DNA of 64,000 nucleotides, taken from NCBI RefSeq assembly GCF_033025475.1, contig NZ_CP130322.1, forward strand, positions 1,841,001 to 1,905,000, given 5' to 3'. This document shows positions 1 through 34,771 of this stretch, one piece after another (the first letter of the stretch is position 1; each line of letters begins with the position of its first letter). The notes below the pieces were generated by a model, which saw nothing but the letters and a program-made list of their open reading frames with translations, searched no databases and was not told the origin of the DNA. The translations under genes were made by a program, and so were the position numbers. The stretch comes from Sphingomonas sp. C3-2 (GTDB lineage Bacteria > Pseudomonadota > Alphaproteobacteria > Sphingomonadales > Sphingomonadaceae).

Positions 1-291
1 CACGAGCACGATCGGTCGGTCGGTGAGCGCCGCCACGATGAGGCCAGGAAAGCCCGCGCCCGATCCAAGGTCCATCCACGGCCCTGCGGGCGCATCCTTG
101 GCCTTGGGAACAAGCTGCGCGGAATCGACGATATGGCGCGCCCAGACATGCTCGCGCGTCGAGGCGGAGATCAGATTCTGCTTGTCGCCCTCCTCCAGCA
201 GGAAGGCGATGAACGCCTCGATCCGTTCCTCTGTTTCACGTGGAACAGCCAGATGATCGCGCAGCCAGGCGCGTGCTTCGTCTTCGGTCAT
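1..291 (-). CDS. rsmG: 16S rRNA (guanine-N7) methyltransferase RsmG, N-terminal part
   Basis: Only the first 97 codons are inside the window; the gene runs off the left edge. The translation begins [14 protein letters not shown] and contains the SAM-binding motif [10 protein letters not shown] at residues 74-83, which is the RsmG (GidB) signature. The family methylates G527 of 16S rRNA in the cytoplasm. The start is fixed by an ATGA overlap: the ATG at 291-289 shares bases with the mnmG stop at 290-288, so the two are translationally coupled. By conserved order parA and parB would be expected next, beyond the edge. Codons 15-20 contain a parS-like palindrome, so this stretch has a DNA-level role as well as coding. 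Confidence 0.93.
232..247. other. parS: parS-like centromere site inside rsmG
   Basis: The 16 bases TGTTTCACGTGGAACA match the bacterial parS consensus (TGTTNCACGTGAAACA and its GTGGAACA variant); the arms are complementary except at one position. It lies within the rsmG reading frame. ParB binds such sites and spreads to build the segregation complex. A perfect copy lies at 2187-2202. Location next to the gid/par locus and about 9.6 kb from the proposed origin fits known parS placement. Confidence 0.8.
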
Positions 292-2147: not shown

Positions 2148-2186
2148 GGCCCAAACGCCTAGGTGAGCGCTGGCCCCAAGTCAAAA

Positions 2187-2202
2187 TGTTCCACGTGGAA
2201 CA
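2187..2202. other. parS: parS centromere site between mnmE and mnmG
   Basis: TGTTCCACGTGGAACA is a perfect 16-bp palindrome matching the alphaproteobacterial parS motif. It starts five bases beyond the mnmE stop in the 60-bp mnmE-mnmG gap, so it does not code. Its sister site is at 232-247. ParB loading at such sites near the origin drives chromosome segregation in this class (family knowledge). Its distance to the proposed origin DnaA boxes is about 7.7 kb. Confidence 0.85.
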
Positions 2203-2207
2203 TCGGA

Positions 2208-3497
2208 CTATTTGCCGATGCAGAAGCGTCCGAAAAGCGCGTCGAGCATGTCCTCGGTCCCTGCGCGGCCGGTGAGGCGATCGAGCGCGCCGCGCGCATA
2301 GCGCAGATTTTCGGCGAGGATGAGCAGATCGTTGCTGCCCTCAAGCGTGGTGCAGCACGCGGCGAGCAGGTTGCGCTGGCGGGCGTTGAGCGCCAGCTCG
2401 CCCGGGCGCGGGAGCAGCGCATCGGCGCGGGTGGTGAGCTGATCGACGAGCGCGTCCATCCCCGCCCCTGTCCGCGCCGAAATCGCAATATCGGCATCGG
2501 CGGGCGCCGCTTCGCGCCCTTCGCGATCGGCCTGGGCGTGGATGCGTATCGTCTTGTCCGGCGCGGGCGAGGCCGATGCCTCGTCGAGCCAGAGCAGGAT
2601 ATCGCTCGCCTCGATCACCGCGCGCGCGCGGTCCATGCCGATGATCTCGATCTCGTCGCTGGTGGCGTCATGAAGTCCGGCGGTATCGCTGAACACGAAG
2701 GGACGCCCGGCAAGCGCGATCGGCACCTCGATAATGTCGCGCGTCGTCCCCGGCCGCGCCGAGACGATCGCTGCCTCGCGCCCGGCGAGCGCGTTGAGCA
2801 AGGTCGACTTGCCCGCATTGGGCGGACCGGCGAGCGCGACGCGAATGCCATCGCGCAGCCGCTCGGCCGAGGGTCGGTTGAGGAAGGTTTCGATCTCGGC
2901 GGACAGTGCCGCGATCTCGGCGGAGAGCGTCTTCGCCGCGCCCATATCCTCGTCGACGTCATCCTCGTCGGAAAAATCCAGCAGCGCCTCGACCCGCGCA
3001 GAGATCCCGAGCAACTGATCCTGCCACGCGCGCACGCGCGCGCTCAACCCGCCTTCGGCCATCGCCATCGCGCTCATGCGCTGCAGCTCGGTTTCGGCGA
3101 AGAGCAGATCGGACAAGCCTTCGGCCTCGGCGAGATCCATCCGGCCATTTTCAAACGCGCGCCGGGTAAAGGCACCGGGCTCGGCGGGCATCAGCCCCTC
3201 GACCCGGCCAAGCACTTGGAGCACACGCGCCACCACGGCCCGGCCGCCGTGCAGATGCAGCTCGGCCAGATCCTCGCCGGTCGCGGTCGCCGGCCCCGGA
3301 AACCAGAGCACCAGCGCCTGATCGAGCACGGCACCGTCGGCGGGATCGCAGAGCCGTGCCAGGCTCGCCTGACGCGGGCGCGGCAAACGGCCGGCGAGCG
3401 CGCGGACCGCATCGGCGGCGTGCGGCCCGCTGATCCGGACGATCGCGATGGCGGCGGGCGGCGCGCCGCTCGACAGGGCAAAGATGCTGTGCGTCAT
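2208..3497 (-). CDS. mnmE: tRNA modification GTPase MnmE (TrmE)
   Basis: This is a 429-residue protein, slightly shorter than the usual ~450. The N-terminal tetrahydrofolate-binding domain starts MTHSIFALSSGAPP. The embedded G domain has G1 GPPNAGKS (224-231), G2 PGTTRD (249-254) and G3 DTAGL (271-275), and the C-terminus ends with the catalytic CIGK motif. The G4 motif, normally NKxD, reads AQAD at residues 321-324, keeping only the aspartate; base specificity may therefore be relaxed or supplied differently. MnmE partners with MnmG in wobble uridine modification. The gene follows a DUF6489 gene by 16 bp and precedes mnmG. Confidence 0.96.
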   Translation of the reverse strand: MTHSIFALSSGAPPAAIAIVRISGPHAADAVRALAGRLPRPRQASLARLCDPADGAVLDQALVLWFPGPATATGEDLAELHLHGGRAVVARVLQVLGRVEGLMPAEPGAFTRRAFENGRMDLAEAEGLSDLLFAETELQRMSAMAMAEGGLSARVRAWQDQLLGISARVEALLDFSDEDDVDEDMGAAKTLSAEIAALSAEIETFLNRPSAERLRDGIRVALAGPPNAGKSTLLNALAGREAAIVSARPGTTRDIIEVPIALAGRPFVFSDTAGLHDATSDEIEIIGMDRARAVIEASDILLWLDEASASPAPDKTIRIHAQADREGREAAPADADIAISARTGAGMDALVDQLTTRADALLPRPGELALNARQRNLLAACCTTLEGSNDLLILAENLRYARGALDRLTGRAGTEDMLDALFGRFCIGK

Positions 3498-3513
3498 CGT
3501 CTTGGCTAAGGGC

Positions 3514-3750
3514 TTATTTCCGCGTACCGCCGATCTGGCCGAGCAGATCGCGCCAGAGATTCATCCCCGCCTCCCCCATCGGGGTCCAGTTGCGCATCAG
3601 CTGCTCGATCAGCTCGGGATTGATCGCCTTGCCGCCCAGCGCATCGACCAGCCCCGCGACATATTTTTCATGAACCGGCGACAGATCCGGCAAGCCCATG
3701 AAACGGCGGGCTTCTTCCGGCGTGCAATCGATCTCGACATTCACCTTCAT
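3514..3750 (-). CDS. DUF6489 family small protein
   Basis: This is a 78-residue protein starting MKVNVEIDCTPEEARRFMG and ending GQIGGTRK. The beginning and middle (TPEEARRFMGLPDL) look like the DUF6489 family seen in sphingomonads and relatives; its function is unknown to me. There is no signal peptide or membrane segment. I chose the start at 3750 rather than an upstream extension because the upstream frame reads as low-quality antisense of ogt and the conserved sequence begins here. It sits 16 bp before mnmE, so it likely leads the mnmE-mnmG-rsmG operon, divergent from ogt across 51 bp. Confidence 0.85.
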   Translation of the reverse strand: MKVNVEIDCTPEEARRFMGLPDLSPVHEKYVAGLVDALGGKAINPELIEQLMRNWTPMGEAGMNLWRDLLGQIGGTRK

Positions 3751-3801
3751 GGTGTTCTTCTCCGCTTGAGCAGCCGCGCGGCCCCCTGCTACGCTGCATC
3801 C

Positions 3802-4299
3802 ATGTCCTATGCCCCCGACCATGCCCGGATCGCAACGCCCATCGGCATGATCACGATCTGCGGCACGGCCGACAACCTCTCCGCGATCACGATAGAGTCC
3901 GGAATCGGCGAAGGCGAGGTGCAATCGCGGGCGCCTGCCGTCATGGCGGCCGTGGCGCAGCTGCGCGCCTATTTCGAGGGGCGGCTGCAGCATTTCGACC
4001 TGCCGCTCCTCCCGCTCACCACGCCGCGCGGCGAAGCGCTGCGCGCCAGCATCGCCGCCATCGGCTATGGCGAGACGATGAGCTACGGCGCGCTAGCAGC
4101 CAGCATCGGCTCGTCGCCCCGCGCGATCGGGCAGGCCTGCGCGCGCAATCCCTATCCGATCATCATCCCCTGCCACCGCGTGCTCGGCGCGGGCGGCGCG
4201 CTTGGCGCCTATAGCGCGGGGGCTGGGCCCGACACCAAGCAACAGCTACTCATCCACGAAAACCCCAACTTTGCGAAAGGCACCCTATGGGCATTATGA
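3802..4299 (+). CDS. ogt: methylated-DNA--protein-cysteine methyltransferase (Ogt/MGMT type)
   Basis: This is a 165-residue protein with the suicidal alkyl-acceptor motif PCHR at residues 123-126 (Cys124) and the downstream GGALGAYSAG segment of the MGMT active-site fold. The family removes O6-alkyl groups from guanine by transferring them to the cysteine. The start ATG at 3802 begins MSYAPDHARIATPIG; longer in-frame extensions would overlap the divergent DUF6489 gene. The stop overlaps the ATG of the next gene (ATGA at 4296-4299), suggesting a three-gene plus-strand operon with the hydrolase and quinone reductase. Confidence 0.92.
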   Translation: MSYAPDHARIATPIGMITICGTADNLSAITIESGIGEGEVQSRAPAVMAAVAQLRAYFEGRLQHFDLPLLPLTTPRGEALRASIAAIGYGETMSYGALAASIGSSPRAIGQACARNPYPIIIPCHRVLGAGGALGAYSAGAGPDTKQQLLIHENPNFAKGTLWAL

Positions 4300-4985
4300 C
4301 CACAGTCGAAACCCTTCATCACGACGGCAGCTTCCAGGCCTATGTCGCCGAACCGGCGGGCACGCCCAAGGCGGCAATCGTCGTGATTCAGGAGATCTTC
4401 GGCGTGAACCCCGGAATCCGCGCCAAGTGCGACGAATGGGCGGCGCAAGGCTATCTCGCCATCGCGCCCGATCTGTTCTGGCGCCTGCGCCCCGGAATCG
4501 AGCTCGATCCCGATGTCGAGGCGCAATTCCAGGAAGCGCTGGGCCTGTTCGGCCAGTTCGATCAGGACAAGGGAATCGAGGATATCGAAGCCACGATCCG
4601 CTTTGCACGTGAAAAGAGCGGCGGGCTCAAGGTCGGCTGCACCGGTTACTGCCTTGGCGGCCGGCTTGCCTTCATGACGGCGACGCGCACCGACATCGAT
4701 GCCTCGGTTGGCTATTACGGCGTTGGAATCGATGGCCTTCTTGGCGAAAAGCACGCCATCTCGCGCCCCGTGATGCTGCACGTGCCGACCGCCGATCATT
4801 TCGTCGACGCCGATGCGCAAAAGCGCATGCACGACGGGCTCGACGATCACCCCAAGGTGACGATCCACGACTATCAGGGCCTCGACCACGGCTTTGCCAC
4901 CCAGATGGGCAATCGCCGCCACGAGGAAGGCGCGCAGCTGGCCGATGGCCGCACCGCCGCCTTCTTCGCCGAGAATCTCGCTTGA
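4296..4985 (+). CDS. dienelactone hydrolase family protein
   Basis: This 229-residue cytoplasmic alpha/beta hydrolase has the DLH nucleophile elbow GYCLGG (Cys at about residue 119), followed by a TADHF aspartate near 167 and the YQGLDHGF histidine near 198. That gives the Cys-Asp-His triad of carboxymethylenebutenolidase-like enzymes. The early EIFGVN segment is also typical. The true substrate is not evident, since no aromatic ring-cleavage genes are nearby. I prefer the ATG at 4296, which overlaps the ogt stop as ATGA; an alternative ATG lies at 4287. The stop overlaps the TTG start of the next gene. Confidence 0.9.
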   Translation: MTTVETLHHDGSFQAYVAEPAGTPKAAIVVIQEIFGVNPGIRAKCDEWAAQGYLAIAPDLFWRLRPGIELDPDVEAQFQEALGLFGQFDQDKGIEDIEATIRFAREKSGGLKVGCTGYCLGGRLAFMTATRTDIDASVGYYGVGIDGLLGEKHAISRPVMLHVPTADHFVDADAQKRMHDGLDDHPKVTIHDYQGLDHGFATQMGNRRHEEGAQLADGRTAAFFAENLA

Positions 4986-5965
4986 GCGAGCATTACCGCC
5001 TTGTGATCCGCCAGCCCGGCGGGCCCGAAGCGATCGAGCGGGAGGTGTTCGACCTCCCGCCCGTTCCGGGGCCCGGCGAGGTGCGGATTCGCAATCGCGC
5101 GATCGGGCTCAACTTCATCGACGTCTATCACCGCATGGGGCTCTATCCCCTGCCCTATCCCGCCGGGCTCGGCCGCGAGGCGGCGGGTGTGGTCGAAGCG
5201 CTCGGACCCGGTGTCTCGGGTTTCGCGGTAGGCGACCGGGTCGGCTATCTGTTCGCCCCGGGTGGCACCTATGCCACGCACAGCATCGCCGCCGCCGACA
5301 GCCTGATCCGCCTGCCCGACGAGATTTCGGACGAAATGGCCGCAGCCGCGCTCCTGAAGGGGCTGACCAGCTGGATGCTGATCGAGAAATGCGCGCGCGT
5401 GGCGGCGGGACAGGCGGTGCTCGTCCATGCAGCCGCCGGCGGCGTGGGCAGCATCGCGGTGCAGTGGCTGAAGGCGATCGGTGCGGTCGCGATCGGCCAT
5501 GCGGGCAATGACGCCAAGGCGGCACGCGCCAAGGCGCTGGGCGCCGACCATGTGCTGAGCGGCGATTTCGCCGCGCTGGCTGCATCCGTACGCGCGCTTA
5601 CCGATGGTCGGGGCGTCTCTGCGGTGCTCGACGGTGTCGGGCGCGACAGCTGGCAGGCCTCGCTCGACAGCCTTGCGCGTCGTGGAACCATGGTCAGCTT
5701 CGGCAATGCCAGCGGCCCTGCCCCGGCGATCGAGCCGCTCGAACTCAGCCGGCGTGGATCGCTGATGCTCACCCGCCCCACGCTCGGCGATTTCATGGTC
5801 GATCCCGTCGAACGCCAGCAAGGCGCCGATGCGCTGTTCGGACATATCAAGAGCGGCGCGGTGACGATCGAGATCGGCCAGCGTTTCCCGCTGGCGGCGG
5901 CCGCAGAGGCACACCGGGCGCTTGAGGCACGTGAGACCACCGGATCGACGATCCTGCTGCCCTGA
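4982..5965 (+). CDS. quinone oxidoreductase (zeta-crystallin-like, MDR family)
   Basis: This 327-residue medium-chain dehydrogenase/reductase lacks the zinc ligands of alcohol dehydrogenases. The N-terminal GroES-like half contains NRAIGLNFIDVYHRMGLYP, which is the quinone reductase signature. The Rossmann half contains VHAAAGGVGSIAVQ for NADPH. The family reduces quinones by one electron with NADPH. The start is a TTG at 4982 that overlaps the preceding stop (TTGA); no better start is available without a gap. It is the last gene of the ogt operon and is followed by a strong bidirectional terminator. Confidence 0.92.
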   Translation: MSEHYRLVIRQPGGPEAIEREVFDLPPVPGPGEVRIRNRAIGLNFIDVYHRMGLYPLPYPAGLGREAAGVVEALGPGVSGFAVGDRVGYLFAPGGTYATHSIAAADSLIRLPDEISDEMAAAALLKGLTSWMLIEKCARVAAGQAVLVHAAAGGVGSIAVQWLKAIGAVAIGHAGNDAKAARAKALGADHVLSGDFAALAASVRALTDGRGVSAVLDGVGRDSWQASLDSLARRGTMVSFGNASGPAPAIEPLELSRRGSLMLTRPTLGDFMVDPVERQQGADALFGHIKSGAVTIEIGQRFPLAAAAEAHRALEARETTGSTILLP

Positions 5966-5994
5966 GCCCCCTCAAAACGGCAAATGCGCAAAGA

Positions 5995-6026
5995 AAAACG
6001 CCCCGGTAGCGATACCGGGGCGTTTT
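5995..6026. terminator. bidirectional intrinsic terminator
   Basis: A 14-bp perfect stem runs from 5995-6008 (AAAACGCCCCGGTA) to 6013-6026, with a four-base loop, and both ends carry A/T runs. It sits between the convergent quinone oxidoreductase and terC genes and can serve both. Confidence 0.93.
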
Positions 6027-6030
6027 CGTG

Positions 6031-6771
6031 TCAGAAGTTGGCGGTCAGCACCATCAACCCGACATCGGGATCAACGATCCCTTGGTAGATCATCTTGATC
6101 GCGACATAGACGATCACGGCCAGGCCGACATAAGCGATCCAGCGATAACGCTCGATATATTTGGCGATGATGTTCGCCGCGATACCCATGAGCGCGACCG
6201 AGAGGATGAGGCCGATGACGAGAATGCCCGGATGCTCGCGCGCGGCGCCCGCCACCGCGAGCACATTGTCGAGGCTCATCGACACATCGGCAACCGCAAC
6301 CGCCCAGGCGGCGGCGGCAAAGCTCTTGGCCGGCGCGATACCGCTATTTTCGTCGCCCTCCACCTCGGGCGAACCGGCATTGCCGGCCGTCACGGGATGA
6401 AGTTCGCGGTACATTTTCCACGCCACCCAGAGGAGGAGCAGACCACCCGCGAAGATCAGCCCGATAATGCCGAGCAGCCAGCTGACGACCAGCGCAAAGC
6501 CGATCCGCAGCACCAGCGCCGCGATGATACCGATCATGATGACCTTGCGGCGCTGTTCGGCGGGAAGCCCCGCTGCCAGCGCGCCGACCACGATCGCATT
6601 GTCGCCTGCAAGGACGAGATCGATCAGCAGAACCTGACCGAACGCCGCCAGCGCCGCGGGCGAGCCGATATTCGACAAATCGTTGAGGATATGCTGCCAG
6701 ATATCGGCAGGTGATCCGAGCCCGGCCCCCGCCGCAGCGGCGGCCGACGTCATGGCAATGAGTTCGTGCAT
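6031..6771 (-). CDS. TerC family integral membrane protein
   Basis: This 246-residue inner-membrane protein has about seven hydrophobic segments. It carries TerC-family signature stretches: QVLLIDLVLAGDNAIVVG near residues 46-63 and the matching second repeat VAVADVSMSLDNVLAVAG. The paired acidic residues in membrane helices (D..AGDNA and SLDN) are the conserved putative metal-ion ligands. Members (TerC, YjbE, Alx) are linked to tellurite resistance or manganese and other metal efflux; the specific substrate cannot be read here. The gene follows rho by 21 bp on the same strand and may be co-transcribed with it. Confidence 0.9.
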   Translation of the reverse strand: MHELIAMTSAAAAAGAGLGSPADIWQHILNDLSNIGSPAALAAFGQVLLIDLVLAGDNAIVVGALAAGLPAEQRRKVIMIGIIAALVLRIGFALVVSWLLGIIGLIFAGGLLLLWVAWKMYRELHPVTAGNAGSPEVEGDENSGIAPAKSFAAAAWAVAVADVSMSLDNVLAVAGAAREHPGILVIGLILSVALMGIAANIIAKYIERYRWIAYVGLAVIVYVAIKMIYQGIVDPDVGLMVLTANF

Positions 6772-6792
6772 GATGGCGATCCCGGTTGCGGC

Positions 6793-8049
6793 TTACTGAT
6801 TCATCGAATCGAAGAAGTCTTCGTTGGTCTTCGAATCCTTCATCTTGTCGAGCAGGAACTCCATCGCATCGATGGTGCCCATCTGCATGAGGATGCGACG
6901 CAGCACCCACATCTTCGACAGCTTCGCCTTGTCGACCAGCAGTTCTTCCTTGCGGGTGCCCGACTTGCCGACGTCGAGCGCCGGGAAGATGCGCTTGTCC
7001 GCAACCTTGCGGTCGAGCACGATTTCCGAGTTACCGGTGCCCTTGAATTCTTCGAAGATCACTTCGTCCATGCGGCTGCCGGTATCGATGAGCGCGGTCG
7101 CGATGATCGAAAGCGAACCGCCTTCCTCGATATTGCGCGCGGCACCGAAGAAACGCTTGGGGCGCTGGAGCGCGTTGGCGTCGACACCGCCGGTCAGCAC
7201 CTTGCCCGACGAGGGCACCACGGTGTTGTAGGCGCGGCCGAGACGGGTGATCGAATCCAGAAGGATCACGACGTCCTTCTTGTGCTCGACGAGGCGCTTG
7301 GCCTTTTCGATCACCATTTCGGCGACCTGGACGTGGCGCTGCGCGGGTTCGTCGAAGGTCGAGGAAATGACCTCGCCGTTCACCGAACGCTGCATGTCGG
7401 TCACTTCCTCGGGGCGTTCGTCGATCAGCAAGACGATCAGGAACACTTCGGGGTGGTTGTCGGTGATCGCCTTGGCGATGTTCTGCAGCAGCACGGTCTT
7501 ACCGACGCGGGGCGGTGCGACGATCAGCGCGCGCTGGCCCTTGCCCTGCGGCGCGACGATATCGATCACGCGCGCCGACTTGTCCTTGACGGTCGGGTCG
7601 AGCGTGTCGAGCACCAGCTTCTGCTCGGGGTAGAGCGGGGTGAGGTTGTCGAAGTTGACGCGGTGGCGCACGGCGTCGGGATCGTCGAAATTGACCGAGA
7701 CGAGCTTGGTCAGCGCGAAATAGCGTTCGCCGTCCTTGGGGCCGCGGATTTCGCCTTCGACGGTGTCGCCGGTGCGCAGGCCGAACTTGCGGACCTGGTT
7801 GGGCGAGACATAAATGTCGTCGGGGCCGGCGAGATAATTGGCATCGGGGCTGCGCAGGAAGCCGAAGCCGTCCTGGAGCACCTCGATCGTGCCCATACCC
7901 ATGATCTGGGTACCGTTCTCGGCCTCCACCTTCAGGATCGCGAACAGCAAATCCTGTTTGCGCAGGGTCGATGCGCTTTCAACACCCAGCTTTTCGGCCA
8001 GCTCAACCAGCTCGGCGGGCGACTTCTTCTTGAGATCTTTTAAATGCAT
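6793..8049 (-). CDS. rho: transcription termination factor Rho
   Basis: This 418-residue protein has typical Rho length and order. An N-terminal helical domain ([20 protein letters not shown]) is followed by the RNA-binding cold-shock-like domain with [13 protein letters not shown] (residues 61-73) and the hexameric RecA-like ATPase with Walker A APPRVGKT (178-185). Rho is the ATP-dependent RNA translocase that ends transcription. A 160-bp leader separates it from hemJ. This leader contains three GANTC sites within 46 bp (8054, 8065, 8095). Rho next to hemE and the origin matches the Caulobacter-type ori region. Confidence 0.97.
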
Positions 8050-8178
8050 ATGGGATTCCGAATGGAGTCTGGGAGTGAATTCCGCAGGAAATGAGACTCG
8101 ATTACTGGATAGAAAACCCTGCGCGAACGGCAGAGTGGTCCGACAGGCGTTAAGCGGCCTGCCGGATCAAGTCAAGCA

Positions 8179-8194
8179 AGCGCCCGAAGGCGCT
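8179..8194 (-). terminator. UUCG-tetraloop hairpin after hemJ
   Basis: On the minus strand a six-bp stem AGCGCC/GGCGCT closes a TTCG tetraloop (a C-UUCG-G cap, known to be exceptionally stable). It lies 16 bp past the hemJ stop. Only a weak T-rich tail follows (TTGCTTGACTTG), so it may end the hemE-hemJ transcript or stabilise its 3' end. Confidence 0.5.
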
Positions 8195-8209
8195 CGACAG
8201 AATGAGGAG

Positions 8210-8656
8210 TCAGAAGGGACGAACGACCGCGAGGATCACGATCACCGCGGCGGCAACACCGGGCACTTCGTTCCACATGCGCAGCTTCTTGTCCGAAAAG
8301 GCGCGTTCGCCGCGCGCCAGCTTTTTCGCATAGCCGACCGTCCAGCCATGATAGCCGCTGAGCAGCAGCACAAAAAGCAGCTTGGCGTGGAACCAGCCTT
8401 GCGAAAACATGCCGCCATTCAGCGCGAGCACGATCCCGAGCACCCAGACGACGATGAGCGAAGGGTTCAGGATGATGTTCTTCAGCCGGCGCTCCCGCTC
8501 GATCCAGCGCGCATCCTCGGGCGAGCCGACAGGGGCTTCCTGATGATAGATGAAGAAGCGCGGCATCATGAACAGCCCCGCCATCAGGAAGATGGCGAAG
8601 ATGATGTGCGCGGCCTTCACCCACAGCCATAGATTGCCCAGAAAACCTTCCATCAT
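8210..8656 (-). CDS. hemJ: protoporphyrinogen oxidase HemJ (CopD-like membrane protein)
   Basis: This 148-residue protein has about four membrane segments. It includes the family features WVKAAHIIFAIFLMAG near the N-terminus, with the conserved histidine in KAAH, then RFFIYHQE and RMWNEVP. HemJ is the oxygen-independent-type alternative to HemG/HemY and oxidises protoporphyrinogen IX to protoporphyrin IX in the inner membrane. Coupling supports the call: its ATG overlaps the hemE stop as ATGA, giving a two-gene heme operon. The older annotation for this family is CopD or UPF0093. Confidence 0.9.
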   Translation of the reverse strand: MMEGFLGNLWLWVKAAHIIFAIFLMAGLFMMPRFFIYHQEAPVGSPEDARWIERERRLKNIILNPSLIVVWVLGIVLALNGGMFSQGWFHAKLLFVLLLSGYHGWTVGYAKKLARGERAFSDKKLRMWNEVPGVAAAVIVILAVVRPF

Positions 8657-9663
8657 GCCCCCCTGCGGACAAGGCCGAGAAGCTGTTCGACATGCGCGAT
8701 CGGCGTGTCGGGCAGGATTCCATGGCCCAGGTTGAAGATGTGCGGTCGATCGCCCAGCGCATCCAGGATGCGGGCGACGGCACTTTCGAGCGCCGAACCA
8801 CCGGCAATAAGCGCGAGCGGATCGAGATTGCCCTGCACCGGCAGATTGGCCGGCAGGTTCGCCGCCGCCCAGACCGGATCGACCGTTTCATCGAGCCCGA
8901 CGGCATTCACCCCGGTTTCGCGGGCATAGGCTGGAAGCTTGCCCCCCGCCCCCTTCGGAAAGCCGATGATCGGGGTGTCGGGATGGCGCTGGCGCAAGGC
9001 ATCAACGATCCGGACCGTGGGGGCGATGACCCAGCGTTCGAACTGCGCGGGCGACAGGCTGCCCGACCAGCTGTCGAACAGCTGGACCGCATCGACGCCC
9101 GCTTCGATCTGCTTGGCCAGATAATCGACCGTGCTGTCGGCGATGGCGTTGATGATCGCTTCGAACGCCTGGGGATCGCGGTAGGCATAGCGTCGGGTTT
9201 CGCCCTGCTCTCGGCTGCCCTGCCCGGCCACCATATAAGTCGCCACGGTCCAGGGGCTTCCGGCAAAGCCCAGAAAGGTCGTCTGCGCGGGCAGATCGGC
9301 GCGTACCCGCCGCACCGTTTCATAGACCGGTTCCAGCCGCTCCATCACCGGGGTGAGCGCCGCCAGCGCATGATCGACGAGCGGGGGCGACAGACGCGGC
9401 CCCTCGCCCGCCTCGAAACGCAGATCCTGACCCAGCGCATGGGGGATCATCAGAATGTCGGAAAACAGGATCGCGCCATCAAAGCCGAAGCGGCGGATCG
9501 GCTGCAAGGTGATCTCGGCCGCGGTCTCGCTGTCGGTCGCCAGTTCGAGGAAGCCGCCCTTTTGTTCGCGAAGCGCGCGATACTCGGGAAGGTAACGCCC
9601 GGCCTGGCGCATGAGCCAGACAGGAGGCACGGGCTGGCGGGTCCCCCGGAGCACGGCGAGCAA
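8653..9663 (-). CDS. hemE: uroporphyrinogen decarboxylase HemE
   Basis: The protein has 336 residues from a TTG at 9663. The two HemE signatures are clear: PVWLMRQAGRYLPEYR near residue 14, and the later GFAGSPWTVATYMVAGQGS. The enzyme decarboxylates uroporphyrinogen III to coproporphyrinogen III. The start is uncertain. From the TTG the protein lacks several N-terminal residues that E. coli HemE has, whereas an in-frame CTG at 9693 would add MTDRHASVRP and has an AGAGGG Shine-Dalgarno-like stretch upstream. No ATG or GTG is available before an in-frame stop. The gene borders the origin. Confidence 0.94.
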   Translation of the reverse strand: MLAVLRGTRQPVPPVWLMRQAGRYLPEYRALREQKGGFLELATDSETAAEITLQPIRRFGFDGAILFSDILMIPHALGQDLRFEAGEGPRLSPPLVDHALAALTPVMERLEPVYETVRRVRADLPAQTTFLGFAGSPWTVATYMVAGQGSREQGETRRYAYRDPQAFEAIINAIADSTVDYLAKQIEAGVDAVQLFDSWSGSLSPAQFERWVIAPTVRIVDALRQRHPDTPIIGFPKGAGGKLPAYARETGVNAVGLDETVDPVWAAANLPANLPVQGNLDPLALIAGGSALESAVARILDALGDRPHIFNLGHGILPDTPIAHVEQLLGLVRRGA

Positions 9664-9857
9664 TGGGCGAACGGAAGCGTGTCGGTCGGTCAGAGCTTTG
9701 TCCCTCTACCTATCTATCTTGATTCAAGAAGATGGGTGTTGATGTTGGTCGCTTGATAGCGGGGCTTATCCCCCAGGCACAGTTTTGCCAACAGCTTGAC
9801 TCCTGAGGAGTCGAGAGTCCGCACAGAGTCGATTCAAATATCCCCATGACTCACATT

Positions 9858-9866
9858 TTATCCACA
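9858..9866 (+). other. DnaA box 1 (perfect)
   Basis: TTATCCACA is the exact consensus DnaA box. It lies inside the hemE-ppsR gap. Confidence 0.85.
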
Positions 9867-9878
9867 GGGGGTATGGGT

Positions 9879-9887
9879 TGTGGATAG
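9879..9887 (-). other. DnaA box 2 (one mismatch)
   Basis: TGTGGATAG on the plus strand is CTATCCACA on the minus strand, one base off consensus. It is inverted relative to the box 12 bp to its left. Confidence 0.7.
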
Positions 9888-9969
9888 TTTGTGGAGCGAA
9901 TCTAGGGCATCGGGGATGGAATCCAGAGTTTCCGGACTCTGTGAGTCTTTTGCTAGATAATTCCCAAAC

Positions 9970-9978
9970 TTATCCACA
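9970..9978 (+). other. DnaA box 3 (perfect)
   Basis: TTATCCACA ends 11 bp before the ppsR start codon and adjoins the AT-richer stretch. It could both initiate replication and let DnaA influence ppsR transcription. Confidence 0.8.
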
Positions 9979-9989
9979 AAGATGCACCC

Positions 9990-10814
9990 ATGACCCGTTT
10001 ACACCTTCATCTCCTGTCCGATTCCACCGGCGAAACCCTGGAAAACATAGCAAAAGCGGCGCTAGCGCAATTCGATGGCGTCGAAACGATCAAACATTTC
10101 TGGCCGATGGTCCGGTCCGAAGGACACCTCGATCGGATCCTTGTCGACATCGCGCAGAACCCCGGACTCGTCCTCTTCACGCTGGTGAACATCGATATCC
10201 GGCGCAAGCTTGAAGGGCGCTGTCGCGCGCTTGGGCTGCCGATGGTCGCCGCCCTCGATCCGGTCACCGATGCGCTGTCCAACCTGCTTGGTCAGCAGGC
10301 CAAGGCGCGGCCCGGGCGACAGCACACGCTCGACGCCGCCTATTTCGCGCGGGTTGATGCGATTCAGTTCACCATCGCGCATGACGACGGCGTGAACTGG
10401 GAGAATTGGGAAGAGGCGGACATCCTGCTCGCGGGCGTGTCGCGCTGTTCGAAAACGCCGACCTCGATCTATCTCGCCAATCGCGGATTCAAGACCGCCA
10501 ATATCCCGATCGTCGTTGAATCGCCGCCGCCCGACAAACTCTATTCGCTGCGCAATCCGCTCGTCGTCGGGCTCACCGCGAGCACCGACCGGCTGGTCCA
10601 GGTCCGCCGCAACCGGCTGCTCTCGCTCAATCAGGCGCCCGAGACCGATTATGTCGATCAGGATGCCGTCACCCGCGAAATCGCCTTTGCCCGCCGGATG
10701 TTCGCCGATAATGGCTGGCCGGTGATCGACGTCACCCGCCGCTCGATCGAGGAAACCGCCGCGGCGATCATCAACCTCTATAATGAGCGCAACGGCGCCC
10801 GGGAAATCGCATGA
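9990..10814 (+). CDS. ppsR: pyruvate,phosphate dikinase / PEP synthase regulatory protein (DUF299)
   Basis: This 274-residue cytoplasmic protein starts MTRLHLHLLSDSTGETLENI and carries the nucleotide-binding P-loop GVSRCSKTPTS near residues 149-159. These are the hallmarks of the bifunctional ADP-dependent kinase / Pi-dependent pyrophosphorylase that switches PPDK or PEP synthase off and on. It is the homologue of Rickettsia RP001, which flanks the origin. It opens a five-gene run in which each of the first four junctions is an ATGA overlap, ppsR-maf being the first. Confidence 0.94.
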   Translation: MTRLHLHLLSDSTGETLENIAKAALAQFDGVETIKHFWPMVRSEGHLDRILVDIAQNPGLVLFTLVNIDIRRKLEGRCRALGLPMVAALDPVTDALSNLLGQQAKARPGRQHTLDAAYFARVDAIQFTIAHDDGVNWENWEEADILLAGVSRCSKTPTSIYLANRGFKTANIPIVVESPPPDKLYSLRNPLVVGLTASTDRLVQVRRNRLLSLNQAPETDYVDQDAVTREIAFARRMFADNGWPVIDVTRRSIEETAAAIINLYNERNGAREIA

Positions 10815-11407
10815 CTCTTGTTCTCGCCTCCGAAAGCGCCGCGCGCCGCGCGATGCTGGCGGCGGCCGGCGTGCCGCACGAGGCGCTGGCCCCGCGCGTC
10901 GATGAAGACAGCGCCAAGGCCGCACTGCGCGCCGAGGGGATCAGCGCGCGCGGGCTGGCCGATGCGCTGGCCGAACTCAAGGCGGTCCGCCTCTCCACCC
11001 GGGTGCCCGGCGCATTGGTCCTCGGCTGCGATCAGACTCTGGCGCTCGACGACGGCACGATGTTCGACAAGCCCGCCGACCGTGCGGGTGCCGCCGAGCA
11101 ACTGCGTCTGCTGTCGGGCCGCACCCATGCGCTCCACAGCGCGGCGGTGATCGCCGAGAACGGCCAGCCGATCTGGCGGCATGTAGACCGCGCCAAGCTC
11201 TATGTCCGTCCGCTCAGCGACGCGTTCATCGAATCCTATCTCGATGCCGAATATGAAGCCGTGCAATATTGCGTCGGCTGCTACCGCATCGAGGGGCCGG
11301 GGATTCAGCTCTTCTCGCGCATCGAGGGGAGCCATTTCACGATATTGGGGCTCCCGCTCCTGCCGCTTCTCGATTTCCTGCGTACCCGAAAGATATTGAC
11401 GTCATGA
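10811..11407 (+). CDS. maf: Maf-like nucleotide pyrophosphatase
   Basis: This 198-residue protein begins MTLVLASESAARRAML, the Maf N-terminal signature (LASxSxxRR). It also has the catalytic block GCDQTLALDDGTMFDKP near residue 75 and the closing GCYRIEGPG block. Maf proteins hydrolyse non-canonical or canonical nucleoside triphosphates to monophosphates for house-cleaning, with effects on septation in some bacteria. It overlaps ppsR and aroE by four bases at each side, so its expression is coupled to both. Confidence 0.92.
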   Translation: MTLVLASESAARRAMLAAAGVPHEALAPRVDEDSAKAALRAEGISARGLADALAELKAVRLSTRVPGALVLGCDQTLALDDGTMFDKPADRAGAAEQLRLLSGRTHALHSAAVIAENGQPIWRHVDRAKLYVRPLSDAFIESYLDAEYEAVQYCVGCYRIEGPGIQLFSRIEGSHFTILGLPLLPLLDFLRTRKILTS

Positions 11408-12216
11408 CGCTTCCCTATGCCGAGGTGATCGGCGATCCGATCGCCCAGTCCAAATCGCCGGTCATCCACAAATTCTGGCTCGAAAAGCTCGGAATCGCGG
11501 GAGATTACCGCAAGACTCACATCACCGCTGACGGGCTGGAGGCGTTTTTTCGCGAGCGCGCGGCCGATCCGGCGTGGAAGGGGTGCAACGTTACTGTCCC
11601 GCACAAGCAGGCGGTGATTCGCTTCGTCGAGGATCGCGGCGGCGTGGGCGACAGCATCGGCGCGATGAACACGGTCATCCGGCTCGATGACGGCACGCTG
11701 ATCGGCACCAACACCGATGCCGCCGGATTTTATGGCCCGATCGCCGATCTCGATCTGGCTGGCCGCGATGTCGTCGTGATCGGCGCGGGCGGTGCGGCGC
11801 GCGCGGTGCTGTTTGCGCTATCGCGCGCGGCGGTGGGCGAGGTCACGATTCTCAATCGTACGCGCGAAACCGGCGTCGAACTGCTTCGTCATTTCGGGCT
11901 GAAGGGCAAGGTGCTGCCGCTCGACGCGCCGATTCCGCCCGCCGCGCTGATCGTCAACGCCAGCACGCTCGGCATGACCGGCGCGCCCGATTTCGATCCC
12001 GATCTGTCGGACCAGCCCGATGACTGCGTCGTCTATGACATCGTCTATGCGCCGCTGCAGACCGCGCTTCTTGCCGAAGCCGAGGCGCAGGGGCTGGAGA
12101 CGGTTGACGGACTCGCGATGCTGATCGGCCAGGCGGCGGTGGCGTTCGAACTCTTCTTCGACCGCGAACCCCCGCGCCTGTTCGACGAGGAATTGCGCAA
12201 GCTGCTCACCGCATGA
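11404..12216 (+). CDS. aroE: shikimate dehydrogenase AroE
   Basis: This 270-residue enzyme starts MTLPYAEVIGDPIAQSKSP, which contains the shikimate-binding SxS motif. It has the catalytic block GCNVTVPHKQ near residue 60 and the NADP-binding glycine motif IGAGGAARAV near residue 125. It reduces 3-dehydroshikimate to shikimate in the aromatic amino acid pathway. The ATG at 11404 is embedded in the maf stop (ATGA), and its own stop overlaps coaE likewise. An upstream in-frame extension lies wholly in maf and is not used. Confidence 0.96.
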   Translation: MTLPYAEVIGDPIAQSKSPVIHKFWLEKLGIAGDYRKTHITADGLEAFFRERAADPAWKGCNVTVPHKQAVIRFVEDRGGVGDSIGAMNTVIRLDDGTLIGTNTDAAGFYGPIADLDLAGRDVVVIGAGGAARAVLFALSRAAVGEVTILNRTRETGVELLRHFGLKGKVLPLDAPIPPAALIVNASTLGMTGAPDFDPDLSDQPDDCVVYDIVYAPLQTALLAEAEAQGLETVDGLAMLIGQAAVAFELFFDREPPRLFDEELRKLLTA

Positions 12217-12815
12217 TCGTCATCGGGCTCACCGGATCGATCGGCATGGGCAAATCGGCGGTAGCCGCGATGTTCATGGCCGAAGGGGTACCCGTGTTCG
12301 ACGCTGATGCCGCGGTACACCGGCTGCAGGGCCCGGGCGGGCGGCTGCTCGCTCCCATCGAGGCGCGTTTTCCCGGCACGACCGGGTCGGACGGGGTGAA
12401 TCGCGCCGCGCTCGGCCAGGCTGTGTTCGGCAATCCCGAGGCGCTCGCCGCGCTCGAGGCGATCGTCCACCCCGTCGTCGCGCTTGACCGGTTGGCGTTT
12501 CTGCGCCGGAATCGCGCGCGGCCGATGGTGGTGCTCGATATTCCGCTGCTCTTCGAAAAGGGCGGATCGGCGCGGGTCGATCATATCGTCGTCGTCTCCG
12601 CCCCGGCGTGGAAGCAGCGCCGGCGCGTGCTCGCGCGCCCCGGCATGACGCCCGAAAAATTCCGCCGCATCCTCAAGCTCCAGCTGCCCGACGCGCAAAA
12701 GCGCCTGCGCGCGGACACGGTTGTCGACACTGGCGGGGCGAAAGCGGCGACACGCGCAAAAATCCGCCAACTGGTGGCTTGCCTCCGCGCAAAACAGCGC
12801 CGATATTGTTCGTGA
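12213..12815 (+). CDS. coaE: dephospho-CoA kinase CoaE
   Basis: This 200-residue protein has the Walker A loop GLTGSIGMGKS at residues 5-15, the substrate block VFDADAAVH near 30 and the HPxV motif (VHPVV) near 85. CoaE phosphorylates dephospho-CoA in the last step of coenzyme A synthesis. It overlaps aroE by four bases, and dnaQ starts just after its stop (one base between), so it sits in the same operon. Confidence 0.95.
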   Translation: MIVIGLTGSIGMGKSAVAAMFMAEGVPVFDADAAVHRLQGPGGRLLAPIEARFPGTTGSDGVNRAALGQAVFGNPEALAALEAIVHPVVALDRLAFLRRNRARPMVVLDIPLLFEKGGSARVDHIVVVSAPAWKQRRRVLARPGMTPEKFRRILKLQLPDAQKRLRADTVVDTGGAKAATRAKIRQLVACLRAKQRRYCS

Positions 12816-12816
12816 C

Positions 12817-13527
12817 ATGCGTGAGATAGTATTCGACACCGAAACGACCGGATTGAGCGCTCAGGGAGGCGACAGGCTCGTCGAGATCGGCTGCGTCGAA
12901 CTCTTCAACCGGGTTGAAACCGGGCGCGTCTTCCATGCCTATTTCAACCCCGAGCGTTCGATGCCGAGCGAGGCGCAGGCGGTGCACGGCCTGTCCGAGG
13001 CGTTTCTCGCCGACAAACCGCTCTTCGCCGACAAGGTCGAGGATCTGCTCGACTTCCTCGAAGACACCCCGCTCATCGCGCACAATGCGCAGTTCGACTT
13101 TTCCTTCCTGAATTTCGAACTGAAGGCGTGCGGCCGCCCGATCGTGAGCCTTGATCGGATGATCGATACGCTGGCGATGGCGCGCACGCGTCATCCCGGT
13201 GCGAAGCACACGCTCGACGCGCTGTGCAACCGTTATGGCATCGATCGCAGCCACCGTGTGATGCACGGCGCGTTGCTCGACGCGCAGCTTCTTGCCCAGG
13301 TCTATGTCGAGCTGACCGGCGGACGCCAGATCGGGCTGATGCTGGGGGCGCCCGAAACGCTGGTTACGGCCGCGGCCGGACCCGCATCGGCGGTTGCCAC
13401 GTTGGTAGAGCGTGTGGTGCGCCCCGCGCGTGCGCATGCCGCAAGCGAAGAGGAGCTGACACGCCACGCAGAGTTCGTTGCCAAGCTGACCGACCCGCTC
13501 TGGTTAAAGGGGGTGGTCGCCGGGTGA
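12817..13527 (+). CDS. dnaQ: DNA polymerase III epsilon subunit (3'-5' proofreading exonuclease)
   Basis: This 236-residue DEDDh exonuclease has Exo I FDTETTG (residues 6-12), Exo II AHNAQFDFSF near 88 and Exo III HGALLDAQLLAQVY near 150. It also has a proline/alanine-rich C-terminal tail that would bind the polymerase alpha subunit. It proofreads the replicative polymerase. The start MREIVFDTE follows coaE by one base. In Caulobacter-type order secB would come next; here a hibernation factor gene does. Confidence 0.95.
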   Translation: MREIVFDTETTGLSAQGGDRLVEIGCVELFNRVETGRVFHAYFNPERSMPSEAQAVHGLSEAFLADKPLFADKVEDLLDFLEDTPLIAHNAQFDFSFLNFELKACGRPIVSLDRMIDTLAMARTRHPGAKHTLDALCNRYGIDRSHRVMHGALLDAQLLAQVYVELTGGRQIGLMLGAPETLVTAAAGPASAVATLVERVVRPARAHAASEEELTRHAEFVAKLTDPLWLKGVVAG

Positions 13528-13581
13528 CGGTCCAGTGCCGTTTCGGTCGAAGCGGTACAGTATCTTGATGGAGAAATAGCC

Positions 13582-14175
13582 ATGGAAATCCGTGTTTCGG
13601 GTCATCGTGTCGACACCGGCGAAGCGCTTCGGGCGCATGTCGAGGATCGACTGACTGCCATCGCGGACAAATATTTCTCGCGCGCGCTTTCCGCACAGGT
13701 CACCTTCAGCAAGGGGCCGCATGATTATGGCTTCCGGTGCGACATCGTCGCGCATGTGATGCAGGGCGTGATTCTGAAGGGAAGCGCCACCGGGCAGGAA
13801 GCCCATCCTGCCTTCGACACCGCCGCCGACCGTATCGAAACCCAGCTGCGTCGGTACAAGCGCCGGCTGAAGGATCGCGCCCCCGCGCAGCAGGCGGCCG
13901 CCAACGCCGCGATGGAGCTGCTCAACGGCAATGCGGGCTATACCGTCTTTGAAATGGCCGAGGAAATCGAGGAAGCGACGGATAATCCGCCCATCGTCGC
14001 CGAAACCCGCGTGGACGTGCCCGATGCCTCGGTTTCGGATGCGGTGATGATGCTCGATTTGCGCAATACCAACGCGTTGCTTTTCAAAAACAGTGGCACT
14101 GGCGCGTATAATATGGTCTATCGCCGCGGCGACGGCACCATCGGCTGGGTCGAGCCGCAGCGCGCCGCCATCTGA
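13582..14175 (+). CDS. hpf: ribosome hibernation-promoting factor, long form
   Basis: This 197-residue protein consists of an N-terminal HPF/YfiA domain (MEIRVSGHRVDTGEALRAHVEDRL, residues 1-24, to about 100), a variable linker and a C-terminal dimerisation domain (SDAVMMLDLRNTNALLFKNSGTG region). This is the long-HPF architecture that makes 100S ribosome dimers in stationary phase. A GGAGAAA ribosome-binding site precedes the ATG. ptsN follows 71 bp downstream; hpf-ptsN pairing is common in proteobacterial rpoN regions, although rpoN itself is not here. Confidence 0.94.
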   Translation: MEIRVSGHRVDTGEALRAHVEDRLTAIADKYFSRALSAQVTFSKGPHDYGFRCDIVAHVMQGVILKGSATGQEAHPAFDTAADRIETQLRRYKRRLKDRAPAQQAAANAAMELLNGNAGYTVFEMAEEIEEATDNPPIVAETRVDVPDASVSDAVMMLDLRNTNALLFKNSGTGAYNMVYRRGDGTIGWVEPQRAAI

Positions 14176-14211
14176 TTTCAGCAACCGTAAAGGTTGGATA
14201 ATACAAGGTTC

Positions 14212-14234
14212 GAGGCGGGCTATATGCCCGCCTC
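14212..14234 (+). promoter_or_regulatory. perfect hairpin between hpf and ptsN
   Basis: A nine-bp perfect stem (GAGGCGGGC, 14212-14220, with 14226-14234) has a five-base TATAT loop. It is not followed by a T run, so it is less likely a simple terminator than a partial terminator, mRNA stabiliser or processing site that would set ptsN level relative to hpf. Confidence 0.55.
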
Positions 14235-14246
14235 TGCGGATTTAAT

Positions 14247-14714
14247 ATGAGCAACTTCAGTGATATACTTGTTCCCGCCACGGTTGTGGCGGGGATGCCG
14301 GTTACCAGTAAGAAGGCCCTTTTCCAGCAGCTCGCGGCAATCGTTGAGCGCGAGGTGGGCCTGTCTGCGCGTACCGTGGTCGAGCGTCTGAGCGACCGCG
14401 AAAAACTGGGTTCGACCGGATTCGGCGGCGGAGTCGCGATTCCGCACGGCAAGATCGAGGGCCTGAATCAGGTGATCGGGGTGTTCGTCCGTCTGGATGA
14501 GGCGATCGAGTTCCAGGCGATCGACGATATGCCCGTCGATATCGTGTTCATGCTGCTGTCCCCGCCCGATGCGGGGGCTGAACATCTGAAGGCATTGGCG
14601 CGCGTCAGCCGCGCGCTGCGCGACAAGCAGTTCCTCGCCAAGCTGCGCGGCGCGGGGTCGACCGATGCGCTGTTCGCGCTTCTGGTGACAAGCGAAGCGC
14701 GCGATGCTGCCTGA
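14247..14714 (+). CDS. ptsN: PTS IIA-like nitrogen-regulatory protein PtsN
   Basis: This 155-residue EIIA-Ntr/fructose-type domain has the phosphorylatable histidine in GGGVAIPHGKIEG (about residue 70). Its length and start (MSNFSDILVPATVV) are normal. PtsN is the last phosphate acceptor of the Ntr-PTS and regulates potassium transport and stress responses in its unphosphorylated form (family knowledge). It overlaps the next gene by 11 bases. Confidence 0.94.
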   Translation: MSNFSDILVPATVVAGMPVTSKKALFQQLAAIVEREVGLSARTVVERLSDREKLGSTGFGGGVAIPHGKIEGLNQVIGVFVRLDEAIEFQAIDDMPVDIVFMLLSPPDAGAEHLKALARVSRALRDKQFLAKLRGAGSTDALFALLVTSEARDAA

Positions 14715-15204
14715 GGCAGGCGATCCCGGCGCGATGGAGGGCGAACAGGCCCATTTTCGCGCGCTGGAATCGCTTTATGCGAGCGCGCCGATCAACCTGC
14801 TTTTCCCGTCGCGCCTTGAAATCCCTGCGGCCGGCGAAGCGCGGATCCATTTCGACGTCGACGAGCGCGTCCATCACGCGGCGGGCGCGGTGCACGGCAC
14901 CAGCTATTTCAAGATGCTCGACGACGCTGCCTTTTATGCGGCGAACAGCCTCGTCACCGATTATTTCCTGCTGACGACCGCGTTCAACCTGTTCTTTACC
15001 CGCCCGATGAAAAAGGGCCCGGTGATCGCCGAGGGGCGCTGGATCAGCGGCAAGCGGCGTGTTTACGTGGCCGAAGCGCGGCTGATCGATGCCGAAGGCG
15101 AGGAATGCGCGCGCGGGACGGGCACCTTCATGCGCTCGCGCATCCCGCTCGCCTCGCTTCCCGGCTATTCCACCACGCCGACTGTGGCATCGCCGCGCGC
15201 GTGA
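14704..15204 (+). CDS. PaaI-type hotdog-fold thioesterase
   Basis: This 166-residue protein has the PaaI/4HBT hotdog-fold pattern. HHAAGAVHGTSYFKMLDDAAFYAA (roughly residues 58-81, in two parts) holds the helix and catalytic acidic residue, and is followed by strands ending RGTGTFMRSR. Members hydrolyse acyl-CoA thioesters; the substrate is not evident. The first ATG at 14704 lies inside ptsN; a later ATG (MEGEQAHF) would start after it. The stop overlaps the GTG of the DUF1491 gene. The ptsN-thioesterase-DUF1491 run is coupled. Confidence 0.85.
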   Translation: MLPEAGDPGAMEGEQAHFRALESLYASAPINLLFPSRLEIPAAGEARIHFDVDERVHHAAGAVHGTSYFKMLDDAAFYAANSLVTDYFLLTTAFNLFFTRPMKKGPVIAEGRWISGKRRVYVAEARLIDAEGEECARGTGTFMRSRIPLASLPGYSTTPTVASPRA

Positions 15205-15542
15205 CGCCGCGGCTTACCAGCAAGTTTCTTGTATCGGCGCTCGTCCGCCGCGTCGAAATCGAGGGTGGGCACGGCGCGATCCTGGCACGCGGCGATGCCG
15301 AAGCGGGCGCGATCCTGCTGCTCTGCGCCGAACGCGGCGTCCCCCAAAAGCTGCTCGAACGCACGCTCGATTTCGATCGAGGCTATGTCTGGACGGCATG
15401 CGGCCCCGAAAACATTGACGATTCAGAGGCTCTCGCCGCCTATATCGACCGCCGCCGATCGCGTGACCCCGACCTGTGGCTGGTTGAACTGGATATCGCT
15501 CACGCCGAACGGTTCGCCGCTGAAACAATCGCTCAGGGTTGA
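15201..15542 (+). CDS. DUF1491 family protein
   Basis: This 113-residue protein starts at a GTG (15201) in a GTGA overlap with the preceding stop and reads VTPRLTSKFLVSALVRRVE. The middle (GAILARGDAEAGAILLL) and the tail (RRRSRDPDLWLVELDI) match my recollection of DUF1491, a small alphaproteobacterial family of unknown function. There is no signal peptide or transmembrane helix. The overlap implies translation coupled to the thioesterase. Confidence 0.8.
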   Translation: MTPRLTSKFLVSALVRRVEIEGGHGAILARGDAEAGAILLLCAERGVPQKLLERTLDFDRGYVWTACGPENIDDSEALAAYIDRRRSRDPDLWLVELDIAHAERFAAETIAQG

Positions 15543-15702
15543 CTCGAAACGCGTCTGCGAACATTTGGGCGTCCAACGCCACGCGTCAGGCCGTGTTCCC
15601 GTAAGTTGGGAAGTCCGGCAACGCAGTCGGGGGGCGATCAGGGAATGCCAGAATTTGGGGGCATCCTAGTTCGATCAGTCAACCGCACATCGCCTTGAGT
15701 TG

Positions 15703-16350
15703 ATGAGTCCGATTTTGCGCGCTGCGGGTTCCGCGGCGATTTCCCTTTGCGTGTTTGCGGCGGCCGTCGAAGCCGTTCCGTCAGTCGCTTTCGCTTCGGC
15801 ATCGGTTACCAACCCGACCAGCGAAACCGTAATTTCCGATCCTGCGATCATTAACGCACCCGTCGTGCAGCAGGTTCCCGTTCTCGAAGATGCTGCGGCT
15901 CCGGCTGCACCCGAGGCGGTAGAGCCCGACACCAAGCCCGTTTCGCTGCGCGCACTGGTCGATGCCCAGAACACCGAAACCGCGCTCAGCAAGGATGAGG
16001 AATGCCTTGCCGGTGCGATCTATTTCGAATCCAAGGCGGAATCGCTCGAAGGCCAGCACGCCGTGGCCGAAGTGATCCTGAACCGTGCCGAATCCGGCCG
16101 CTTCCCGACCAGCATCTGCGGTGTGGTCTATCAGCCCAGCCAGTTCTCGTTTGTGCGCGGCGGCAAGATGCCCGCGATCAACCGTGACAGCTCGGCCTGG
16201 CACCAATCGGTTGCGGTCGCCCGTGTCGCGATGCAGGAACGCTGGGACACGGCAGCGTCCGATGCGCTGTTCTTCCACGCCACGCGCGTTTCGCCGCGCT
16301 GGAAGCTGAAGCGCGTCGCAACGATCGGTAATCACATTTTCTATCGTTGA
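15703..16350 (+). CDS. SleB-type cell wall hydrolase, secreted
   Basis: This 215-residue protein has an N-terminal signal peptide (MSPILRAAGSAAISLCVFAA). An alanine/proline-rich linker follows, then a C-terminal Hydrolase_2 (SleB) domain from about residue 100: LAGAIYFESKAE, with the catalytic glutamate, and the later FSFVRGGKM and ALFFHATRV blocks. The family cleaves peptidoglycan, probably in lytic-transglycosylase-like fashion. Sphingomonads have several non-sporulation SleB proteins that act in envelope growth. A 160-bp spacer separates it from DUF1491, and a strong terminator follows. A TTG immediately upstream (15700) is a less likely start. Confidence 0.88.
   Translation: MSPILRAAGSAAISLCVFAAAVEAVPSVAFASASVTNPTSETVISDPAIINAPVVQQVPVLEDAAAPAAPEAVEPDTKPVSLRALVDAQNTETALSKDEECLAGAIYFESKAESLEGQHAVAEVILNRAESGRFPTSICGVVYQPSQFSFVRGGKMPAINRDSSAWHQSVAVARVAMQERWDTAASDALFFHATRVSPRWKLKRVATIGNHIFYR

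Positions 16351-31140: not shown

Positions 31141-34771
<3,631 letters not shown>

Follow-up and report, generated by a model that had tools for sequence, protein, structure and literature searches.

Where does replication of this Sphingomonadaceae chromosome start, and which short sequences does the origin preserve? The window studied is a stretch of 64,000 nucleotides that covers positions 1,841,001–1,905,000 of the Sphingomonas sp. C3-2 genome, a single contig of 3,529,048 bases. A sequence-only reading of the window had placed the origin in a gene-free gap at 9664–9989 (genome coordinates 1,850,664–1,850,989). We conclude that the bacterium almost certainly starts DnaA-dependent replication of its chromosome in this gap. 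It is also highly probable that the origin has the following anatomy, from left to right: hemE, a presumed unwinding element rich in AT, an IHF-like element, a near-invariant CcrM site, the DnaA boxes and ppsR. Direct computation shows the gene junction, boxes and parS neighbourhood, as well as conservation of the boxes and of the CcrM site across the family.

The hemE–ppsR junction

The gap is bounded on the left by hemE (uroporphyrinogen decarboxylase; 8653–9663, minus strand), recognized by a Pfam URO-D match, and on the right by a DUF299/COG1806 gene (9990–10814, plus strand), which, like the earlier reading, we take to be ppsR. Because hemE lies on the minus strand and ppsR on the plus strand, the two genes diverge from the gap, as the sequence-only reading had described. 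The left boundary may lie further in. Upstream of the hemE TTG at 9663 a stop is reached without any in-frame ATG, and the reading frames upstream of the gene, in the window and in 25 relatives, suggest that hemE may start at a CTG at 9691–9693 instead of the TTG at 9661–9663. With hemE starting at the CTG, the true gap may begin near 9694, leaving 9694–9989, and the DnaA boxes and GANTC sites are all retained. A CTG (or TTG) start of hemE seems likely here and in several related genomes.

The arrangement is shared widely. Among the best 30 of 76 same-family genomes with ppsR, hemE is found divergent upstream of ppsR in the window and in all 29 relatives, and among the best 80 of 574 named loci of a public collection the junction is present in 79, the one left out (L109) being a contig without a hemE match. 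The set from outside the family comprised 20 of 60 same-order genomes and 60 of 133 class genomes with ppsR; 68 of these 80 stretches have the junction, and the twelve in which hemE was not found divergent upstream were left out. The family comparisons below use 94 origins, window included, which remained when 25 redundant gaps were removed from 119. Two loci titled Brevundimonas (a metagenome bin; L067) and Microvirga (L131) have ppsR loci 83% and 82% identical to that of the window, respectively, and are probably mis-binned or mislabelled.

The gene on the right flank is less constant within the order, where ppsR was found in 136 of 147 genomes. It was not found in ten of the ten genomes examined of one genus (g13, L214–L223), nor in one other genome of the order. 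All ten genomes of the ppsR-less genus keep hemE, with at least one box-like site and three to nine GANTC in the adjoining 400 bp, so that the origin goes with hemE and can do without ppsR.

DnaA boxes, parS-like sites and candidate origins elsewhere

Two perfect DnaA boxes (TTATCCACA) lie on the plus strand of the gap at 9858–9866 and 9970–9978, the second adjoining ppsR, and a box with one mismatch (CTATCCACA) lies on the minus strand at 9879–9887. These are the two perfect boxes and one near-perfect box that the sequence-only reading had picked out, and they exceed chance: among 2000 dinucleotide-keeping shuffles of the gap, none contained three or more boxes with at most one mismatch and none contained two perfect ones. 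Across the window at large there is no enrichment, since its six DnaA sites with at most one mismatch compare with 3.25 expected and 13 of 100 shuffles reach six. The unusual feature is the presence of three boxes inside one 326-bp gap, not the window-wide count.

Boxes missing from other hemE–ppsR gaps had been named in the same reading as an observation that would speak against an origin here. That objection is not borne out. With at most one mismatch allowed, at least one box is present in 93 of the 94 non-redundant family gaps and in 64 of the 68 gaps outside the family, and at least two are present in 78 of 94 and 46 of 68, respectively. Measured from the TTGAC of the IHF-like element described below, the commonest places of the family boxes are about +51 (plus strand), +63 (minus), +83 or +94 (minus) and +174 (plus), the last of which is the place of the box at 9970–9978. 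Where the family has its first box, at +51, the window has a decayed plus-strand sequence with three mismatches (TGACTCACA, 9847–9855), and 11 bp farther along lies a perfect box.

The parS-like sites that had been reported near the gap are also real. Two lie in the window, at 232–247 and 2187–2202, and a third lies at genome position 1840723, immediately left of it. These three are the only parS-like palindromes with at most two mismatches in the whole genome, and all are 7.5–10 kb left of the gap. Boxes above chance, the genome's only parS-like cluster and a conserved junction with boxes thus support the proposal that the gap is the real origin. A coarse GC-skew sample, drawn from 40 stretches plus the window and covering some 13% of the genome, has mainly negative values on the left and positive ones on the right. 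Its best change point falls at 1.92 Mb (score 1.14; 1.86 Mb scores 1.02), about 70 kb from the gap at 1.8507 Mb, and is compatible with the gap, if too blunt to pin it. A dif search for the terminus gave one match at two mismatches and likewise one in a reversed control, leaving the terminus unplaced.

Three other places could in principle hold the origin: the gyrB–recF cluster, the dnaA locus and a three-box cluster elsewhere in the genome. The gyrB–recF cluster (31141–34771), which would not be the origin by the inference of the sequence-only reading, lacks DnaA boxes even with one mismatch allowed, and we rejected it. We likewise rejected the dnaA locus, which has no perfect box within 20 kb; lying at 708,550 (0.709 Mb), dnaA is no guide to the origin, and PMC8116508 reports that a position of dnaA near ori is not conserved in Sphingomonadales. 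The third place, genome 2,322,615–2,322,760, has three perfect boxes in 146 bp and two TGCCAACA elements resembling the gap's own, and the sampled skew change point lacks the sharpness to speak against it. However, upstream of the same gene two boxes occur in none of the 29 relatives and a single one-mismatch box in two of them, and the genome scan at up to two mismatches places no parS-like site near the cluster. It was rejected as an origin because it is not conserved in these relatives, and an origin at any of the three places is, in our judgement, very improbable. The cluster (L015:5615–5760) lies upstream of a gene that its matches suggest to be ABC-ATPase-like, and is possibly a young DnaA-titrating or regulatory site.

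Putative unwinding and IHF-like elements

The family alignment has an AT peak at the hemE end of the gap, over 30 columns from 9709 (mean AT 0.73; about 0.6 in the window itself), and the unwinding element, a function assigned here from composition, is likely to lie on this side, at 9709–9738. The sequence-only reading had drawn attention to an AT-richer stretch beside the last DnaA box. That stretch exists (AT 0.68 over 40 bases from 9944), but its AT richness is not shared by the family, and we rejected it as the unwinding element.

A conserved element, TTGCCAACAGCTTGAC, lies at 9785–9800 on the plus strand and holds YAA-N4-TTGA at 9789–9799, the IHF consensus core read on the other strand. 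Of the 94 family origins, 59 have YAA-N4-TTGA at this position, against about three by shuffling; outside the family it shows no enrichment (3 of 68 against 5.9). We infer that this TTGAC element is an IHF-like site.

As the sequence-only reading had stated, the gap has no full CtrA box (TTAA-N7-TTAA); a scan found no TTAA in it at all, and the full box occurs in 4 of the 94 family gaps. The window's sole full CtrA-type box lies far away, at 57653–57667 (0.01 expected by shuffling).

GANTC sites are concentrated in the origin

The gap contains 11 GANTC sites, the targets of CcrM, which start at 9721, 9798, 9808, 9815, 9826, 9831, 9848, 9898, 9919, 9935 and 9943 (span 9721–9947). This number is reached in none of 5000 shuffles of the 326 bp (mean 2.07, maximum 8), and in a genome sample of 20 stretches (201 kb; 243 GANTC, about 1.2 per kb) the richest 326-bp window holds four.

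The GANTC sites had gone unmentioned in the sequence-only reading. Two of them, at 9798 and 9808, make up the inverted repeat GACTCC-TGA-GGAGTC (9798–9812). Another inverted repeat, CAGAGT-TTCCGG-ACTCTG at 9924–9941, carries the site at 9935, which is present in one of the 94 gaps and is thus peculiar to this genome. Raised GANTC density spans some 10 kb around the origin (window 1–16000), with 3.3 and 5.3 per kb in the 8-kb bins at 1.841–1.857 Mb, the gap lying in the second; a stretch at 1.905 Mb likewise has 3.2 per kb.

Abundance of the motif is a family trait. The 94 family gaps contain 489 GANTC against 119.7 expected, a 4.1-fold excess when measured against base composition. Ratios for the remaining seven pentamers that are palindromic and share this make-up run from 0.40 to 1.32, and the next highest of all 24 pentamer arrangements has a count of 159 (1.3-fold). 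At least one GANTC is present in every family gap and at least five in 49 of 94. Outside the family the ratio is 1.60-fold; 9 of 68 gaps have at least five sites, 16 have none, and the richest hold 13, 9 and 8. As PMC3973325 reports that GANTC is more than 1.5-fold over-represented in intergenic regions of most alphaproteobacterial orders, the level outside the family is that of any intergenic region, whereas the family level, measured against composition, seems to exceed it. GANTC density in the 79 named loci is 14.8 per kb inside the gaps and 2.33 per kb elsewhere; no other window of the locus equals the gap in 35 loci, another window ties with it in 22 and another is richer in 22.

The spacing of the sites shows phasing at 10 bp, with z values, from which kinship is not removed, of 5.4 for the 49 gaps with at least five sites and 4.2 for 25 gaps of a thinned set. 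The corresponding values, again with kinship in them, are 2.1–3.5 at 8 bp and about 2 at 10.5 bp. We regard the roughly 10-bp spacing as a lead only.

The host genome contains a 420-residue open frame with RAMA, the C-terminal domain of CcrM, scoring 68.3 bits over the cut-off; by this domain we identify it as a CcrM-type gene. RAMA is present in 145 of 147 genomes of the order and in 138 of 192 of the class. Loci outside the family without a RAMA match (n = 8) and with one (n = 60) are alike, with 5.0 and 5.3 GANTC per kb, or 1.8- and 1.6-fold over composition. The numbers are small, the domain may be present where no match was scored, and G159, counted among the 60, scores under the family cut-off. 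In Sphingomonas sp. AAP5, m6A occurs far more often in GANTC than in any other motif (PMC8067484).

A near-invariant CcrM site beside the IHF-like element

One of the 11 sites stands apart. The GAGTC at 9826–9830 is the most conserved pentamer of the gap: 84 of 94 family origins have a GANTC in its alignment column, whereas the best DnaA-box pentamer reaches 79 of 94, both counts being inflated by shared ancestry. A site lies within three columns in 86 origins and eight are without it, and in a thinned set it is kept in 41 of 49. Its middle base is T or G in 82 of the 84 same-column sites.

The site also keeps its distance from the IHF-like element. In all 59 gaps with CCAACA-N2-TTGAC it begins 29–31 bp past the start of TTGAC; the 35 gaps without this strict anchor are outside that count and inside the 84 of 94. 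Because the stretch between TTGAC and the site varies, conservation of the site is no by-product of general conservation. Other GANTC recur, from TTGAC, near +2 (29 of 59), at +10 to +12 (15), +19 to +22 (22) and +100 to +106 (28), and in family gaps at about +35, +113 and +123 too. The CcrM-site module is a family-wide feature.

In every one of the 59 anchored origins the site has the form GAKTC, with a G after it in 50, which brings it near the extended GcrA motif YGAKTCK (PMC7987155); the same source predicts GcrA control of ctrA in Sphingomonadales. The GANTC sites might accordingly serve transcription, by marking GcrA/CcrM-dependent promoters from which hemE, ppsR or a transcript of the origin is read, TTGAC being the −35 element. 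However, only 25 of 59 origins have the motif's leading Y, and the spacer after TTGAC, judged by eye in the anchored rows, is GC-rich and variable and has no −10-like sequence. The site is, moreover, kept in 7 of the 10 rows of the genus without ppsR. A purely transcriptional role is in our view possible, though not probable.

The fixed spacing and fixed middle base resemble those of a protein site, and GAKTCG might instead be part of the binding site of a DnaA cofactor or a nucleoid protein, with the CcrM target incidental to it. Such a reading accords with the gaps outside the family, none of whose 68 has a GANTC at that distance from the TTGAC core even though RAMA is common in the class (138 of 192 genomes). 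Yet an incidental target leaves the other GANTC unexplained, both in their total (489 in 94 gaps, 4.1-fold) and in the 49 of 94 gaps with at least five, and we consider this reading unlikely as well.

A possible role of methylation in limiting re-initiation

The arrangement of the elements suggests how this origin might work. DnaA would load on its boxes and, together with an IHF-like protein, would assemble on the right two-thirds of the gap. The IHF-like bend would carry the complex to the AT-rich left end, which would open, and forks would depart both ways, with parS being duplicated soon after. Firing would hemimethylate the 11 GANTC, which would stay in that state until CcrM acts. Hemimethylation might then alter the binding around 9826 of DnaA, the IHF-like protein, GcrA or an unknown reader, and so help to limit re-initiation. 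We advance this regulatory step tentatively, on the strength of the sequence, and as a hypothesis that may well prove wrong. The fixed CcrM site lies between the bend and the boxes and would therefore be well placed for its methylation state to affect assembly.

Work on other alphaproteobacteria points in both directions. The late action of CcrM in Caulobacter leaves origin-proximal sites hemimethylated longest, and several GANTC lie inside the origin (PMC3973325, which for GANTC motifs in Caulobacter origins cites a Caulobacter origin comparison). Extra chromosomes accumulate in Caulobacter over-expressing CcrM, according to work cited in PMC3973325, which counts for the regulatory step; normal initiation in C. 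crescentus without CcrM, reported in the same paper, counts against it. In A. tumefaciens, depletion or over-expression of ccrM shifted ori2 and did not significantly shift the DnaA-type ori1 (PMC11514494), which likewise counts against it. Several results given above weigh on the same side: the excess of GANTC in alphaproteobacterial intergenic regions at large, the 22 loci in which another window is richer and the 22 with a tie, the eight origins that lack the 9826 site, and the similar densities of loci with and without a RAMA match.

A bolder and doubtful extension is that Sphingomonadaceae run a methylation-gated main-chromosome origin, in which the fixed CcrM site by the IHF-like element would be the licence that CcrM resets. 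Were this so, hemimethylation on firing would block re-initiation, and the further GANTC, at preferred steps of roughly 10 bp, would surround the licence site.

Comparison with known replication origins

An origin at the hemE–COG1806 pair was reportedly described for Caulobacter and Rickettsia by Brassinga in 2001/2002. The mention of such an origin in the sequence-only reading is borne out by PMC1914354, in which the Caulobacter crescentus and Rickettsia origin has the same flanking genes as here, DnaA boxes and an IHF-type site. Unlike the Caulobacter origin, the gap of the window is without a full CtrA box, as are all but four of the 94 family gaps.

Closer to the present genome, PMC4741004 predicts oriC close to hemE for most Sphingomonadaceae, with conserved DnaA boxes and a putative DUE. 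The predicted origins of Sphingopyxis and other Sphingomonadaceae therein resemble ours in their position by hemE, their DnaA boxes and their putative DUE. Since that paper already reports oriC near hemE, the place of the origin is not new, and it is ordinary for the family. Its main text does not mention GANTC; the fixed CcrM site and the IHF-like element are described here. In the open-licence literature we found no description of a CcrM site as the best-conserved short motif of a family's origins, held at constant spacing from an IHF-like element. The best-conserved short origin motif of this family is thus a methylation site, not an initiator-binding site, in origins where full CtrA boxes are nearly absent. 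This suggests a link between methylation and replication timing that can be tested through a single 5-bp target kept by selection in the family. On CcrM control of a DnaA-type origin, the answer given for Caulobacter in PMC3973325 was no.

In the repABC replicons of alphaproteobacteria, CcrM sites are enriched at the replication locus, as they are here, and hemimethylation has been proposed to hold back re-firing (PMC11514494, PMC6090056). Those are RepC-dependent secondary replicons, whereas the gap described here is a DnaA-type origin of the main chromosome. The E. coli oriC, with its Dam/SeqA system (PMC10073500), is likewise of the DnaA type and has eleven adenine-methylation sites in a few hundred bases. 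It differs in its methyltransferase and motif, and in our family the likeness to Dam/SeqA lies in the sites and the CcrM-type gene. If Sphingomonadaceae do gate initiation by methylation, their origin would give the alphaproteobacteria an independent equivalent of Dam/SeqA, covering part of the role that CtrA plays at the Caulobacter origin.
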